Assembly: GCF_900116515.1 (NCBI RefSeq)
Contig: NZ_FPBA01000008.1
Coordinates: forward strand, 124,001 to 188,000
Reading direction: 5' to 3'
DNA length: 64,000 nt
From: Geodermatophilus amargosae
GTDB lineage: Bacteria; Actinomycetota; Actinomycetes; Mycobacteriales; Geodermatophilaceae
The translations under genes and the position numbers were made by a program. The notes below the pieces were generated by a model. The model was not told the DNA's origin and did not search any database. It saw nothing but the letters and a program-made list of their open reading frames with translations. Shown piece after piece: positions 39,113-45,861 of this stretch (position 1 is the stretch's first letter; each line of letters opens with the position of its first letter).

Positions 39113-40450
39113 GTGAGGCACCCGTCAGCCACAACGGGGCGACCCGGGCCACACCGGAGCGCGATCCGCCCCGGCCCCGGTGGAGTCGTCCGCGGGGTGC
39201 TGCTGCGGCTCCTGCTGCTGCTCGTGGCCGCCACCGGTCTGGCCCTGCTCGTCCCCGGCATCGCGAGTGCCGAGGGAGAGACGATCGTCGGCACGCTGCA
39301 GACCAGCCGCAGCGGCCCGATCGAGGGCATCGAGGTGACGGTCGCCACCGCCGACGGCGACGAGGTCGACAGCGTGGAGACCGACGAGGAGGGCAAGTTC
39401 GCCGTCGAGGTCCCCGGCGCCGGCCAGTACACCGTCAGCATCGACGCCGACTCCCTCCCCGAGGGAGTCGTCATCACCGGCGAGGACAGCCGGACGGTCA
39501 CGGTCGACGCCGGACGGCGCCAGCCGGTGCAGTTCGGCCTCAACGACGGCAGCCAGGGCTCGGGCAGCGGCAACATCCAGGCCATCCAGCTGCTGGTCGA
39601 CGGGCTGCGCTTCGGCCTGCTCATCGCGATCTCCGCGGTCGGCCTGTCGCTGATCTTCGGCACCACCGGCCTGACCAACTTCGCCCACGGCGAGCTGGTC
39701 ACCATCGGCGCCCTGTTCGCCTGGTGGGTCAACACCGGGCTGGGCGTCCCGCTCCTGCCCGCGGCGATCATCGCGATGATCGGGGGCGCGGCCTTCGGCG
39801 CGCTCAACGAACTCGGCCTGTGGCGGCCGCTGCGCCGCCGGGGCACCGGGCTGGTCGCCGCGCTCGTCGTCTCGATCGGCCTGTCGCTGCTGCTGCGCTA
39901 CCTGATCCAGATCCTCTACGGCGGTGGCTCCAACCCCTACCAGGGGCTGGGCACCTCGCGGGCGGTCGACTACGGCCTGTTCCGGCTGACCAACCAGTCG
40001 CTGGTCTCGATCGTCATCTCGGTCGTCGTGCTGGTGCTCGTCGCGGTGATGCTCCAGCGCACCAAGATCGGCAAGGCGATGCGGGCGGTGGCGGACAACC
40101 GCGACCTGGCCGCGTCGTCGGGCATCAACGTCAACCGGGTCATCCTCGTCGTCTGGATGATGGGCGGTGCCCTCGCGGCGCTCGGCGGGGTCCTGCTGGG
40201 GCTGTCGGACCAGGTCCGCTGGGACATGGGCTTCCAGCTGCTGCTGCTCATGTTCGCCGGCGTCACGCTCGGCGGGCTCGGCACGGCCTACGGCGCCCTG
40301 GTGGGCAGCGTCATCGTCGGTGTCTTCGTCCAGATGTCGACGCTGGTGATCCCCAACGACGTCAAGTACGTCGGCGGGCTGCTGCTCCTCATCGTCATCC
40401 TCGTCATCCGGCCCCAGGGGATCCTGGGCAGCCGCGCACGGATCGGCTGA
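39113..40450 (+). CDS. livH: Branched-chain amino acid-type ABC permease (LivH) with N-terminal exported TTR-like domain
   Basis: A 445-residue fusion. Residues 29-53 form a signal-peptide-like helix ending IASAEG. Residues about 56-143 look like a carboxypeptidase-regulatory/transthyretin-like beta domain (GTLQTSRSGPIEGIEVTVAT, DEEGKFAVEVPGAGQYTVSI). From about 154 it is a normal LivH permease (AISAVGLSLIFGTTGLTNFAHGEL, and LFAWWVNTGLG). The GTG at 39113 has GGGAGG four bases upstream. It heads the livHMGF operon. Ordinary LivH proteins are about 290 residues, so the extra domain is an addition facing the outside, possibly touching the binding protein. Confidence 0.9.
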   Translation: MRHPSATTGRPGPHRSAIRPGPGGVVRGVLLRLLLLLVAATGLALLVPGIASAEGETIVGTLQTSRSGPIEGIEVTVATADGDEVDSVETDEEGKFAVEVPGAGQYTVSIDADSLPEGVVITGEDSRTVTVDAGRRQPVQFGLNDGSQGSGSGNIQAIQLLVDGLRFGLLIAISAVGLSLIFGTTGLTNFAHGELVTIGALFAWWVNTGLGVPLLPAAIIAMIGGAAFGALNELGLWRPLRRRGTGLVAALVVSIGLSLLLRYLIQILYGGGSNPYQGLGTSRAVDYGLFRLTNQSLVSIVISVVVLVLVAVMLQRTKIGKAMRAVADNRDLAASSGINVNRVILVVWMMGGALAALGGVLLGLSDQVRWDMGFQLLLLMFAGVTLGGLGTAYGALVGSVIVGVFVQMSTLVIPNDVKYVGGLLLLIVILVIRPQGILGSRARIG

Positions 40451-40453
40451 CCC

Positions 40454-41452
40454 ATGGGCGACCTCCTCAACGCCTTCGCCGTCGCCGGCAAGTCGGCGCT
40501 CGGCTTCCAGGCCGTCTTCTTCGCGCTGCTGGCCATCGGCCTCAACGTGCACTTCGGTTACACCGGCCTGCTCAACTTCGGCCAGATCGCCTTCGCCATG
40601 CTCGGCGGGTTCGGCATCGCCATCTCCGTGTCCCAGTGGGGGCTCAACTTCTGGGTCGGCGTCCTCGTCGGCATCGTGGCGACCGTCGTCCTCGCGCTGC
40701 TGCTCGGTCTTCCGACCCTGCGGCTGCGCGCGGACTACCTGGCGATCGCGACCATCGCCACGGCCGAGGGACTACGGCTGCTGTTCCGGTCGGTCTCGGC
40801 GAGCGAGGTCACCGGCGGCACGCGTGGCCTCTCGGCGTTCAACGGCGACTTCGTCTCCCTGGCGCCGTGGGACACCGGTCAGCGCTACTCCGTCCTCGGC
40901 ACCCGCTGGAGCGGCGGTGAGCTCTGGGTGGCCCTGGTCGGCTGGCTGCTCGTCGCCCTGCTCTGCCTGCTCGTGTGGCTGCTCATGCGCAGCCCGTGGG
41001 GCCGCGTGCTCAAGGCGATCCGCGAGGACGAGGACGCCGTGCGCGCGCTGGGCAAGAACGTCTACCTCTACAAGATGCAGTCGCTCGTGCTCGGAGGCGT
41101 GATCGGCGGTCTCGGTGGCATGGTGTACGTCATCGGTACCGGCGCCGCGAACCCCGACCAGTTCCAGAACGCGAACACCTTCCTGGCCTACGCCGTGCTC
41201 ATCCTGGGCGGCGCCGCGCGGGTGCTCGGGCCGGTGGTGGGCGCGATCATCCTGCTGTTCGTGATCCAGTTCGCCGACACCGGCCTGCGGGCACTGATCA
41301 ACAACGGCGTCATCCCGGAGGGACTGCTGTCGGCCACCGACGTGGCACAGATCCGGTTCGTGCTCGTGGGCCTGGGCCTGATGCTGCTGCTGGTCTTCCG
41401 TCCGCAGGGCATCTTCGGTGACCGACGAGAGGTGATGCTCGATGCCCGCTGA
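40454..41452 (+). CDS. livM: Branched-chain amino acid-type ABC permease (LivM)
   Basis: A 332-residue inner-membrane permease with about nine helices, the LivM signatures GLNVHFGYTGLLNFGQIAFA and LPTLRLRADYLAIATIATAE, and the coupling-helix region WGRVLKAIREDEDAVRALGK. It pairs with LivH to form the transmembrane channel. It starts three bases after the livH stop and overlaps livG by 11 bases. Confidence 0.94.
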   Translation: MGDLLNAFAVAGKSALGFQAVFFALLAIGLNVHFGYTGLLNFGQIAFAMLGGFGIAISVSQWGLNFWVGVLVGIVATVVLALLLGLPTLRLRADYLAIATIATAEGLRLLFRSVSASEVTGGTRGLSAFNGDFVSLAPWDTGQRYSVLGTRWSGGELWVALVGWLLVALLCLLVWLLMRSPWGRVLKAIREDEDAVRALGKNVYLYKMQSLVLGGVIGGLGGMVYVIGTGAANPDQFQNANTFLAYAVLILGGAARVLGPVVGAIILLFVIQFADTGLRALINNGVIPEGLLSATDVAQIRFVLVGLGLMLLLVFRPQGIFGDRREVMLDAR

Positions 41453-42464
41453 GAACACGCCCACCGGCGCGACGGCGGCCTCGCTGCACAAGGGCGCCGC
41501 CCCCGCCGGCCGCGCCCCCCAGCGGCTGGCCCAGGCCGCGCTGCGCGACATCCCGTGGGAGGTCGGCGTCGCCAAGCCCGACCCGGCGATCGTCGTCGAG
41601 AACGTCACGCGCACCTTCGGCGGCCTGACCGCGGTGTCGGTCGACCACCTGGAGGTCCAGCGCGGCGGCATCACCGGCCTGATCGGTCCCAACGGTGCCG
41701 GCAAGACGACGCTGTTCAACCTGCTCACCGGCTTCGACCAGCCCAACACCGGCACGTGGGCCTTCGACGGCAAGTCGCTGGGCAAGCTCGCGCCGCACCG
41801 GGTGGCCCGGCTCGGCGTCGTCCGCACCTTCCAGCTGACCAAGGCGCTGTCGCGGCTGACCGTGCTGGAGAACATGCTGCTGGGCGCCCAGGGCCAGCGT
41901 GGGGAGAGCTTCCTGCGCGCCCTGGTCCCCGGCATCTGGCGGTCGCAGGAGAAGGCCAACACCGCCAAGGCGATGGACCTGTTGCGGCGGTTCAAGCTCG
42001 ACGCCAAGAAGGACGAGTTCGCCGGCACCCTGTCGGGCGGTCAGCGCAAACTGCTCGAGATGGCCCGTGCGCTGATGAGCGACCCGAAGGTCGTCATGCT
42101 CGACGAGCCGATGGCCGGGGTGAACCCCGCGCTGACGCAGAGCCTGCTCGGCCACGTCAAGGACCTCCGCGAGGAGGGCATGACGGTGATCTTCGTCGAG
42201 CACGACATGGACGTCGTCCGGGACATCAGCGACTGGGTCGTCGTCATGGCCGCCGGCCGCGTGATCGCGGAGGGCCCGCCGGAGTCGATCAGCCAGAACC
42301 AGGCCGTCGTCGACGCCTATCTCGGGGCGCACCACGACGCGCCGCTCACCGTCGAGGAGGAGGACCGGGTCCTCGCCCAGGCGGAGGCCGCGATCGCGCA
42401 GGAGGAGCACGGCGGCGGCGAGGTGCTGGGGACCGACGGCACGACCGGGAGGACCGAGCGATGA
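41442..42464 (+). CDS. livG: ABC transporter ATP-binding protein (LivG)
   Basis: A 340-residue ATPase. Walker A is GPNGAGKTT (82-90), the signature is GTLSGGQRKLLEMARALM and Walker B is VVMLDEPMAG. Compared with E. coli LivG (about 255 residues) it has a 45-residue N-terminal and a 35-residue acidic C-terminal extension. It starts inside livM and its stop overlaps the livF start (ATGA). Confidence 0.94.
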   Translation: MPAENTPTGATAASLHKGAAPAGRAPQRLAQAALRDIPWEVGVAKPDPAIVVENVTRTFGGLTAVSVDHLEVQRGGITGLIGPNGAGKTTLFNLLTGFDQPNTGTWAFDGKSLGKLAPHRVARLGVVRTFQLTKALSRLTVLENMLLGAQGQRGESFLRALVPGIWRSQEKANTAKAMDLLRRFKLDAKKDEFAGTLSGGQRKLLEMARALMSDPKVVMLDEPMAGVNPALTQSLLGHVKDLREEGMTVIFVEHDMDVVRDISDWVVVMAAGRVIAEGPPESISQNQAVVDAYLGAHHDAPLTVEEEDRVLAQAEAAIAQEEHGGGEVLGTDGTTGRTER

Positions 42465-43318
42465 GCGACCCGCTGTTCGAGGTCGACGAGTCCGGCGAGG
42501 ACGTCACCCGCGCCGACGAGGCCGCGGCCGGGAGCACCGAGCTCTCCCCCGCGGAGAAGGCCGCCACCCGCGAGGAGCACCTCCGCCTCGCGGAGGGCGC
42601 CCTGGTGCGCGCCGACGACCTCGTCGCCGGCTACGTGCCCGGCGTCAACATCCTGCGCGGCTGCGACTTCTACCTGCAGGAGGGCGAGCTCGTCGGCATC
42701 ATCGGCCCGAACGGGGCCGGCAAGTCGACGCTGCTGAAGACCCTCTTCGGGCTGATCCCGGTCCGCTCGGGACGGGTGTCGCTGCGTGGCGAGGAGATCA
42801 CCTCGGCGCCGGCACACCGTCTGGTGTCGCTCGGCGTCGGGTACGTCCCGCAGAACAACAACGTGTTCCCCTCGCTGACCATCGAGGAGAACATGCAGAT
42901 GGGCGTCTACCTGCGGTCGAAGACCTTCAAGGAGCGCTTCGACTACGTCATCGACCTGTTCCCCCTGCTCGGGGAGCGGCGCAAGGGCAAGGCCGGGTCG
43001 CTCTCGGGCGGCGAGCGGCAGATGGTCGCCATGGGCCGCGCGCTGATGATGGACCCGTCGGTGCTGCTGCTGGACGAGCCGTCGGCGGGCCTGTCCCCCG
43101 CGTACCAGGACGAGGTGTTCATCCGCTGCCGGCGGATCAACGCCACCGGCGTCTCGATCATCATGGTCGAGCAGAACGCGCGGCGCTGCCTGCAGATCTG
43201 CGACCGCGGCTACGTGCTCGACCAGGGCCGCAACGCCTACACCGACACCGGCCGGTCGCTCATGACCGACCCGAAGGTCATCGAGCTGTACCTGGGGACC
43301 CTCGCCAAGGCCCAGTGA
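42461..43318 (+). CDS. livF: ABC transporter ATP-binding protein (LivF)
   Basis: A 285-residue ATPase, partner of LivG. Walker A is GPNGAGKST (82-90), VGYVPQNNNVFPSLTIEENM is the Q-loop region, and the signature is GSLSGGERQMVAMGRALM with LLLDEPSAGLSP. An acidic 45-residue N-terminal extension precedes the usual start. Last gene of the operon; a terminator hairpin follows 20 bases later. Confidence 0.94.
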   Translation: MSDPLFEVDESGEDVTRADEAAAGSTELSPAEKAATREEHLRLAEGALVRADDLVAGYVPGVNILRGCDFYLQEGELVGIIGPNGAGKSTLLKTLFGLIPVRSGRVSLRGEEITSAPAHRLVSLGVGYVPQNNNVFPSLTIEENMQMGVYLRSKTFKERFDYVIDLFPLLGERRKGKAGSLSGGERQMVAMGRALMMDPSVLLLDEPSAGLSPAYQDEVFIRCRRINATGVSIIMVEQNARRCLQICDRGYVLDQGRNAYTDTGRSLMTDPKVIELYLGTLAKAQ

Positions 43319-43604: not shown

Positions 43605-44945
43605 TCAGCGCTGCGGGCCGATGCCGTTCTCGTTGAGACCCTCGATGATCCGGGAGGACTCGTTGAACCCGATGACGACGATGCCGTCGGGGTTGAGCTC
43701 CACCATCTGCTGGACCTCGGCGTCGAAGTTCGCCGCGTTGGGGTCGTAGATGACGTTCACGACCTGGTCCTCGCTCAGACCGCCGGCGAGGAGGTTCTCG
43801 CGGGTGTTCTCCGCGAGGCCGTTCCCGTAGGAGTCGTTGCGGGCCAGGATTCCGATCGTGTTGTTGCCGTCCTCGGCGAGCAGGTCGGCCAGGGCGCGGG
43901 CCTGCAGGACGTCCGGCGGCGCGGTGCGGAAGTACAGACCGTTGTCGTTGTACGTCGTGAACTGGTCCGACGTGTTGGCCGGGCTGATCTGCATGACTCC
44001 GGCCGCGGTGATCCGGTCGATCACGTTGAGGCTGACGGTCGAGGACGCCGCACCGACGATCGCGTTCACGCCGGCCTGCAGGAGGCGGTCGACGGTCTGC
44101 GTGGCGGTGTCGGTCGTGGCATCGCCCGAGTCACCCTCCTCGAGGCGGACGTCCTGGCCCAGGACACCACCGGCGGCATTGATCTCCTGGACGGCCAGCT
44201 TGGCGCCGGCGACCTCCGGAGGGCCGAGGAAGGCGAGGTCACCGGTCAGCGGCAGCAGGGTGCCCATGACCAGCTGCTCACCGGTGGTGCCGGGGGGCGC
44301 GGGGGGCGGGCCCTCGTCGGTGGTGGCGTTGGCCTCGTCGCCGGCGAGGACGAACTCGGTTTGCGAGTCGTCGATGGTGTTGTCGTCGCCGAACGTCTGG
44401 ATGCCGAAGCTCGCCGCCGCCGGCTCACCGGCGTCGACGAAGGCCAGCGGGCCGCTGATGCCGTCGTAGTCGGGGTTGCCCCCGGCGTTGACGATCTCGA
44501 TGCAGGCCTGGTAGGTGTCGCACTTCTCGCCACCGGTGGTGGTGCCGTTGACGTAGGCCTTGAATACGTTGGCGTCGTTGGTGCCGGCCAGCTGCGCCGC
44601 CAGCGCCGTGATGACGATGGCGTCGTAGGTCTCGCCGGCGTAGTTGAAGGTGTTGCCCAGGTCGGGGTCGACCTGCAGGAGCCGGTCGGTGAAGTCACCG
44701 GACAGCTCGGTCAGGGGCAGCGTGCCGCTCATCCCGGCGAGGGCACCCTCCTCCTCGAAGTCCTCCCCGAGGGTGGACCCCATGTTGCCGTCGGTGCCGT
44801 AGATGTTGACCTGCTTCTCACCGCTGCCCTCGGCGGCCTCGCCGCCCGAGCCGCCGCCGCCGTCGTCCCCGCCACCGCAGGCGGAGAGGGCGACGAGGGC
44901 GGCGGACGTGACGGCGATGCTGCGGGCGTAGGTACGCGTGCGCAT
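43605..44945 (-). CDS. Circularly permuted LivK-type substrate-binding lipoprotein
   Basis: A 446-residue lipoprotein (lipobox LSAC, Cys23) of the branched-chain amino acid binding family, but with halves in reversed order. Residues 44-201 (QVNIYGTDGNMGSTLG through GIQTFGDDNTIDDSQTEFVL) correspond to the C-terminal part of LivJ/LivK. A Pro-rich linker follows (about 202-224, EGPPPAPPGTTGEQ). Residues 225-446 (MGTLLPLTGDLAFLGPPEVA through IVVIGFNESSRIIEGLNENG) correspond to the N-terminal part. The break falls where the chain normally crosses back from the second lobe to the first. Cys142 and Cys148 may form a disulfide. The gene is convergent with livHMGF. A GGGAG ribosome binding site lies within the palindrome CAACTGGGAGTTG, and an eight-pair hairpin is in the leader (44981-45001). 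Confidence 0.9.
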   Translation of the reverse strand: MRTRTYARSIAVTSAALVALSACGGGDDGGGGSGGEAAEGSGEKQVNIYGTDGNMGSTLGEDFEEEGALAGMSGTLPLTELSGDFTDRLLQVDPDLGNTFNYAGETYDAIVITALAAQLAGTNDANVFKAYVNGTTTGGEKCDTYQACIEIVNAGGNPDYDGISGPLAFVDAGEPAAASFGIQTFGDDNTIDDSQTEFVLAGDEANATTDEGPPPAPPGTTGEQLVMGTLLPLTGDLAFLGPPEVAGAKLAVQEINAAGGVLGQDVRLEEGDSGDATTDTATQTVDRLLQAGVNAIVGAASSTVSLNVIDRITAAGVMQISPANTSDQFTTYNDNGLYFRTAPPDVLQARALADLLAEDGNNTIGILARNDSYGNGLAENTRENLLAGGLSEDQVVNVIYDPNAANFDAEVQQMVELNPDGIVVIGFNESSRIIEGLNENGIGPQR

Positions 44946-45106: not shown

Positions 45107-45709
45107 TCAGGAGGGTGCACCCTCCGCCGTGGTCGGGTCCGTGGTCAGGATCCGCTCGGCCAGGGACCTCATCGACGTCCGCTCGTTCATGGCCGTGCGC
45201 TGGATCCACCGGAACGCCTCGGCCTCGGTCATCCCCTGCTCGGCCATGAGCCGGCCCTTGGCCTTCTCCACGACCTTGCGGGCCTCGAGGCGCTCCTCGA
45301 GCGTGCGGACCTCGCCGTCGAGCGCGGTCATCTCGCTGAAGCGGGCGCGGGCGACCTCGATGGCCGGCACGAGGTCGTTCTTGGAGAACGGCTTGACCAG
45401 GTAGGCCATGGCGCCGGCGTCGCGGGCCCGCTCGACCAGCTCGCGCTGGCTGAAGGCGGTGAGCACGATGACCGGGGCGATCCGGGCTGAGGCGATCTGC
45501 TCGGCGGCCGCGAGCCCGTCGAGGACCGGCATCTGGATGTCGAGGATGACCAGGTCGGGGGTCAGCTCGCGCGCACGGTCGACGGCGGTCTGCCCGTCGC
45601 CCGCCTCGGCGACGACGACGTACCCCTCCTCCTCGAGCATCTCCTTGAGGTCGAGGCGGATGAGTGCCTCGTCCTCGGCGATGAGGACCCGGGTCGGCTC
45701 GCTGCTCAC
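45107..45709 (-). CDS. pdtaR: ANTAR-domain response regulator (PdtaR-like)
   Basis: A 200-residue two-component regulator. The receiver domain has the acidic pocket E12-D13, phospho-acceptor D57 (LVILDIQMPVLDG) and the VKPF lysine. A coiled-coil linker leads to a C-terminal ANTAR RNA-binding domain (RKVVEKAKGRLMAEQGMTEA, EAFRWIQRTAMNERTSM). ANTAR proteins act by antitermination, binding two-hairpin RNA targets; the M. tuberculosis homologue is controlled by a histidine kinase encoded elsewhere. GTG at 45709 gives the family N-terminus. No partner kinase is in the window. Confidence 0.93.
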   Translation of the reverse strand: MSSEPTRVLIAEDEALIRLDLKEMLEEEGYVVVAEAGDGQTAVDRARELTPDLVILDIQMPVLDGLAAAEQIASARIAPVIVLTAFSQRELVERARDAGAMAYLVKPFSKNDLVPAIEVARARFSEMTALDGEVRTLEERLEARKVVEKAKGRLMAEQGMTEAEAFRWIQRTAMNERTSMRSLAERILTTDPTTAEGAPS

Positions 45710-45787
45710 GCGCAGGAGCCTAGCGACGACGGGCGGCAGCGGCTGCCCGGTTACGCTGACCGGGCCGTGACCTCGGTCGCGGTGCCG

Positions 45788-45861
45788 GCCCCCGTACCCC
45801 AATCGGCAGAGGGAGCGGATTCAAAACCCGCGCAGTGTGCGTTCGAGTCGCACCGGGGGCA
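45788..45861 (+). tRNA. tRNA with anticodon CAA (Leu by anticodon), atypical
   Basis: 74 bases fold as a cloverleaf: acceptor GCCCCCG/CGGGGGC, T arm GTGCG TTCGAGT CGCAC, anticodon loop TTCAAAA (CAA), discriminator A. It is unusual for leucine: the variable region is only five bases (GCAGT) instead of a long arm, and the anticodon stem GCGGA/CCCGC ends in an A-C mismatch. The D stem pairs over only three bases. It decodes TTG if functional. CCA is not encoded (CC then C). Confidence 0.75.

Follow-up and report, generated by a model that had tools for sequence, protein, structure and literature searches.

Binding proteins of the LivJ/LivK (HAAT) type, such as E. coli LBP (2lbp) and S. pneumoniae LivJ (4gnr), are homologous to the protein described here (P0002) over both of its modules, and share with it their anchor residues, lipoprotein nature and livHMGF neighbourhood; P0002 differs in having a permuted order, with its new ends inside lobe 2 and its lipid anchor before lobe 2. 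The only naturally permuted binding protein that we found in print, TpMglB-2 (Tp0684) of Treponema pallidum, belongs to another family and has another cut. This lipid-anchored Type I protein ('Type Ic / Cluster Bc') bound glucose in vitro, which shows that such a topology can work, and its authors discuss tethering as a possible reason for the permutation (PMC4990184). Natural permutation, with a proposed duplication route, is also described for saposin/swaposin and DNA methyltransferases (PMC3320104); these have unrelated folds, whereas permutation of the P0002 type has recurred within a single orthologous slot. Natural circular permutations tend to be ancient, one-time events with a blurred history. 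Here we have one orthologous gene with a conserved neighbourhood, found in canonical and permuted forms in related genomes, probably with repeated origins and with two cut sites.

The gene lies in a window of 64,000 nucleotides (the whole stretch analysed) from Geodermatophilus amargosae, contig NZ_FPBA01000008.1. Very probably it is a naturally occurring circular permutant of livK that serves a convergent livHMGF operon and is of a kind that has recurred in Actinomycetota; it most likely arose by tandem duplication in place. Its open reading frame (446 aa) runs on the minus strand from an ATG at 44945 to a stop at 43605; the initial annotation had given the same gene without its strand. A signal peptide (residues 1–22, 44880..44945), read off the translation in a region where pLDDT is below 50 (residues 1–41), is followed by a lipobox, LSA|C23, recognized by pattern only. 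Next comes the family C-terminal module (residues 44–201, 44343..44816), here placed first, and then a Pro-rich linker (residues 202–224, 44274..44342) that connects the old C-terminus with the old mature N-terminus; the family N-terminal module (residues 225–446, 43608..44273) is placed last. In BLASTP comparison with a canonical relative (L154), residues 225–444 pair with 63–282 of the relative (60% identity, E 2e-90) and residues 42–205 with 281–442 (49% identity, E 2e-46), so that the two halves together span its mature chain in swapped order and join at 281/282. Two strong swapped matches that cover the mature canonical chain are the signature of a circular permutation, and P0002 is best read as a LIV-type substrate-binding lipoprotein that has undergone natural circular permutation, as the initial annotation had proposed, with module borders that were correct to within a few residues. 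When the halves are re-ordered, they align end to end with canonical orthologues. Chance similarity of the halves is excluded by the two E values.

Family profiles read order, and therefore detect only half of such proteins. Thus, Pfam Peripla_BP_6 matched P0002 only at residues 227–444 (profile positions 4–217 of 343), scoring 115.8 bits where the cut-off is 31.7. The LivK-type model PRK15404 gave 63.7 bits, below its cut-off of 477, although a canonical relative (L072) also fell below it at 88.8 bits, and no NCBIfam model names P0002. Homology to LIV/HAAT-type proteins (PF13458) extends over the whole chain and both modules, in agreement with phylogeny, but the canonical N-to-C module order of PF13458 proteins is absent; because of this swap we file P0002 as a permuted variant and not as a canonical LIV member. 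Among the 60 of 103 PDB sequences listed that were compared, none matched the permuted order, and none matched outside profile positions 206–439.

On alignment to E. coli LBP, the cut falls at LBP residues 221/222, ahead of the final strand of lobe 2. The crossing from lobe 2 back to lobe 1, where the initial annotation had put the cut, lies (on the LBP lobe borders that we assume) near residues 248–250; the cut is thus inside lobe 2, and it is in a second permuted group, considered below, that the cut comes nearer to the crossing. TpMglB-2 is of the glucose/galactose family; its cut follows the third strand of lobe 1, its moved part is about 70–100 residues long, against about 220 in P0002, and the sequence homology of that part is less clearly demonstrable than for P0002 (PMC4990184). 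P0002 has neither the cut after strand 3 of lobe 1 nor the MglB-type sequence that define Type Ic / Cluster Bc. The literature that we searched, with most subscription journals outside its scope, contained no account of permutation in a LIV-type protein, in agreement with the statement in the initial annotation that no such member of the family had been described, although it did contain the sugar-binding TpMglB-2 just discussed, a permuted protein whose fold is of the same broad class (PMC4990184). A permuted binding protein as such is already known; the surprise is the recurrence.

The gene sits between an ANTAR response regulator on its upstream side (45107..45802, minus strand; Pfam Response_reg and ANTAR) and a convergent livHMGF operon on the plus strand. 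The operon comprises a LivH-type permease with an N-terminal CarboxypepD_reg domain (39113..40450, start codon uncertain; Pfam BPD_transp_2 at residues 161–430, CarboxypepD_reg at 57–142), a LivM-type permease (40454..41452; BPD_transp_2) and LivG-type and LivF-type ATPases (41442..42464, ABC_tran and BCA_ABC_TP_C; 42461..43318, ABC_tran). The regulator, a synteny marker also kept in canonical relatives, adjoins the permuted gene in all 34 named Geodermatophilaceae loci. Convergent livF, livG, livM and livH follow it in 32 of the 34, the other two stopping at a contig edge (LivF was assigned by position in these loci, and by sequence search in others). A canonical livK occupies the same slot in 12 Streptosporangiaceae loci (L073–L077, L079, L081, L082, L084, L085, L090 and L092) and in four loci of families f8 and f15 (L153–L156), which makes the window gene the positional counterpart of canonical livK.

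How might the halves of a gene be exchanged without leaving its slot? Most likely, livK would have been duplicated in tandem in place, the old C-terminal tail would then have been fused in frame to the leader linker of the second copy, and the outer halves would have been lost. At the junctions, what looks like the native C-terminal tail runs on into the linker usually found ahead of the N module, as read-through between tandem copies would give, and tandem canonical livK pairs do occur in the slot (L234, L235 and L262). In one genome (G1482, L252:1287-3911), a permuted and a canonical copy stand in tandem between the regulator and livF. These two are not sisters in the tree, and no fused N–C–N–C double gene was found among all the ORFs classified, so we infer the duplication route, which we consider likely. 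The missing double gene, and the few steps required, would also suit a relocation of the C-terminal segment (a copy inserted behind the leader, with a new stop) or a fission and fusion, in place of whole-gene tandem duplication. Such a history seems to us rather unlikely, though it deserves real weight: it is at odds with the tandem pairs in the slot and with junctions that resemble a native end joined to a native beginning, and free-standing halves were not seen except as contig-edge fragments.

The initial annotation had seen a single case, and was right that it was permuted; several such cases exist, however, and their cut sites are of two kinds at least, and the order sought in other genomes proved common to whole lineages. 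The 80 named loci divide into 36 permuted, 37 canonical and seven undecided, the permuted ones comprising 34 of Geodermatophilaceae (Geodermatophilus, Blastococcus, Modestobacter and Klenkia) and two of Planosporangium. (One of the 34 is in a record under a Bacillus name: that titled Bacillus sp. AZ43, UNVERIFIED_ORG, has a typical Geodermatophilaceae locus, L042.) Matches were present in 95 of the 112 genomes of the window's family (one full-length match in permuted order in 92, fragments in three), with none at E 1e-20 in the other 17, and in 181 of 397 genomes of its taxonomic order. Full-length matches of the same kind occur in at least 67 genomes of family f16 and in one genome of f13 (G087), the ORFs having been read in eight of the f16 genomes and in G087. 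Module profiles run on 136 ORFs (some genomes being represented twice) classed 62 as canonical and 74 as permuted, and all 74 have one common cut position. In G087, the permuted gene is in the slot, with thioesterase and pyruvate kinase genes beyond. No liv genes were found within the stretches read around the permuted copies of f16 and Planosporangium (L146–L152, L164, L069 and L070); in G357, a canonical livK is kept with its operon elsewhere.

We then used a profile of the permuted proteins to search genomes of the class (394) and of the phylum Actinomycetota (396), phyla beyond it being covered only through exact peptide patterns. Two architectures were found: cut 1, that of the window, falls before the strand that holds D52, and cut 2 some 20 residues later, near LBP 238–240 as read from the alignment. 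Outside the window's clade (group A), cut 1 occurs in group B, from families f49 and f39, and in group C, made up of five genomes of genus g125 in f41 (out of 118 searched, 68 of which match). Cut 2 occurs in group D, from f81, f122, f134, f159, f160 and f165, and in group E, made up of two f68 genomes (out of 35 searched, 26 matching). In f81, the match is full-length in 40 of 121 genomes (71 matching), and the ORFs read in 12 of the 40 all have cut 2. In the taxonomic order of G597, long matches occur in nine of 148 genomes (69 matching), all of genus g168, and six were read; in that of G1055 they occur in five of 148 (40 matching), and all five, when read, had cut 2. The permuted genes of groups B, C (L168) and D are convergent to livFGMH. 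In group E, the operon is divergent with livH nearest (L257 being too short to tell). The ANTAR regulator adjoins the permuted genes of group C and part of group B, and was not found in the D and E stretches that were read.

The number of independent events was judged from trees built on 366 columns of the re-ordered modules, with 84 and 94 rows (a further tree had 117 rows), from which the named-locus rows L093–L114 and some near-duplicates were omitted. In the 84-row and 94-row trees, well-supported branches force five changes, of which three concern cut 1 and two cut 2. Group C lies within the canonical genes of its family, beside canonical L193, and trees made from the N module only and from the C module only both give it this neighbour; this agreement excludes a chimera of two unrelated genes. 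Forcing all cut-1 sequences together cost 213 log-likelihood units (AU test, p 0.0006), so that one origin for the cut-1 proteins is rejected; one origin for the cut-2 proteins is rejected more weakly (p 0.0072 and 0.039), theirs being the weakest split. Pairwise, A with B gave p 1e-5 and 2e-7, A with C p <1e-50, and B with C p 0.0005 and 0.007 (the two 'all' sets were defined by architecture, the pairwise groups having been named after the tree was seen). Group A as one clade was not rejected (p 0.317), with weak clade support (91/39 and 91/77); the first trees, with fewer rows, gave two changes for this clade, again without rejecting one origin. To us this indicates at least four, and probably five, independent permutations within Actinomycetota, the two cut sites being separated by about 20 residues.

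Might there instead have been a single ancient permutation (or one for each cut site) that spread by horizontal transfer, canonical genes having been regained along the way? The three cut-1 groups do share one cut position, the f16 copies are distant from any liv operon, as transfer might leave them, and group A is compatible with one origin. Moreover, the single-module trees resolve little, having fewer forced changes (three for the N module, two for the C module), with groups A and D broken up in the N-only tree; and in general L239 and the permuted copy of L252 form long branches. Nevertheless, we consider a single origin improbable in view of the likelihood cost of uniting the cut-1 sequences and the position of group C among its own family's canonical genes, on which both modules agree, and no one event can be common to the second cut site as well.

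AlphaFold2 modelled P0002, in its real order, as one confident chain (pLDDT 85.9, pTM 0.84), in keeping with the initial annotation; fold comparison (VIA-align) gave an alignment limited to residues 212–446. S302 and T325, in the N-terminal module, and D52, in the C-terminal module, correspond to S79, T102 and E226 of LBP, which we take to be anchors of the ligand. As the anchor residues are divided two to one between the halves, these must meet for binding. Counterparts of all three are retained in 54/54 canonical rows and 16/16 cut-2 rows, and S302, T325 and D52 are retained in 23/24, 23/24 and 24/24 cut-1 rows, respectively. In the nearest pair, dN/dS was 0.11 in both modules, and it was 0.20–0.73 in six other comparisons, so that it lay below 1 in both modules in all seven. 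P0002 is best regarded as a putative LivK receptor for amino acids, belonging to an importer of the branched-chain type (HAAT). It would be secreted and lipidated at C23, and would act as an ordinary Venus-flytrap receptor whose chain begins in lobe 2, closing on an amino acid between the two lobes and handing it to LivH/LivM; the lipid tether would then lead into lobe 2 in place of lobe 1.

The orphan copies in f16, and a redundant permuted copy in L252 that lacks two of the three anchor residues (S to T and T to A), might suggest that the permuted proteins have become sensors or decaying genes and are no longer transport receptors. For the window's lineage, which retains all three anchors, the lipobox and the liv neighbourhood, and in which the P0002 gene is apparently the only one in the window's livK slot, this seems very improbable, and the dN/dS values in both modules also speak against it. 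As for an artefact of sequencing or assembly, a worry raised in the initial annotation for which we found nothing beyond the 69 contigs of the window's own assembly, the recurrence of the order in 92 of 112 family genomes, assembled separately and in some cases (G013, G017, G023 and G024) as one contig, leaves it practically no chance.

That the cuts recur within some 20 residues points to a strong structural preference at the least. A further proposal, which we make tentatively and which may well be wrong, is that selection to move the tether from lobe 1 to lobe 2 caused one livK slot to be permuted at least four, and probably five, times in a short stretch of lobe 2. If so, the shift might serve docking geometry or freedom of closure, beyond what neutral drift alone would do. 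Many sensors are built on binding proteins of this class, with permuted forms engineered by hand, and the probably recurrent swap in actinobacteria is an unusual natural experiment in protein evolution, providing matched natural pairs with which the interplay of fold topology, tether position and transporter docking, and also the duplication model, can be tested.

The CarboxypepD_reg domain of the window's LivH (residues 57–142) is extracytoplasmic, and could be a docking platform. By tblastn, the domain was found at 49 of the 55 permuted and 47 of the 63 canonical loci with a LivH match (some loci sharing a genome); since permuted and canonical loci alike carry it, we rejected a correlation with the permutation.

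Several loci have further copies of SBP genes. In G1280 (L237), two cut-2 permuted genes stand in tandem, so permuted forms can also duplicate. Just upstream of an intact canonical livK in G737 is a shortened SBP-like ORF of 257 aa (L204:5471 onward) that resembles a decaying tandem duplicate, and in G1565 (L265) four consecutive SBP genes of canonical order, one with a partial C module, lie within 14 kb.
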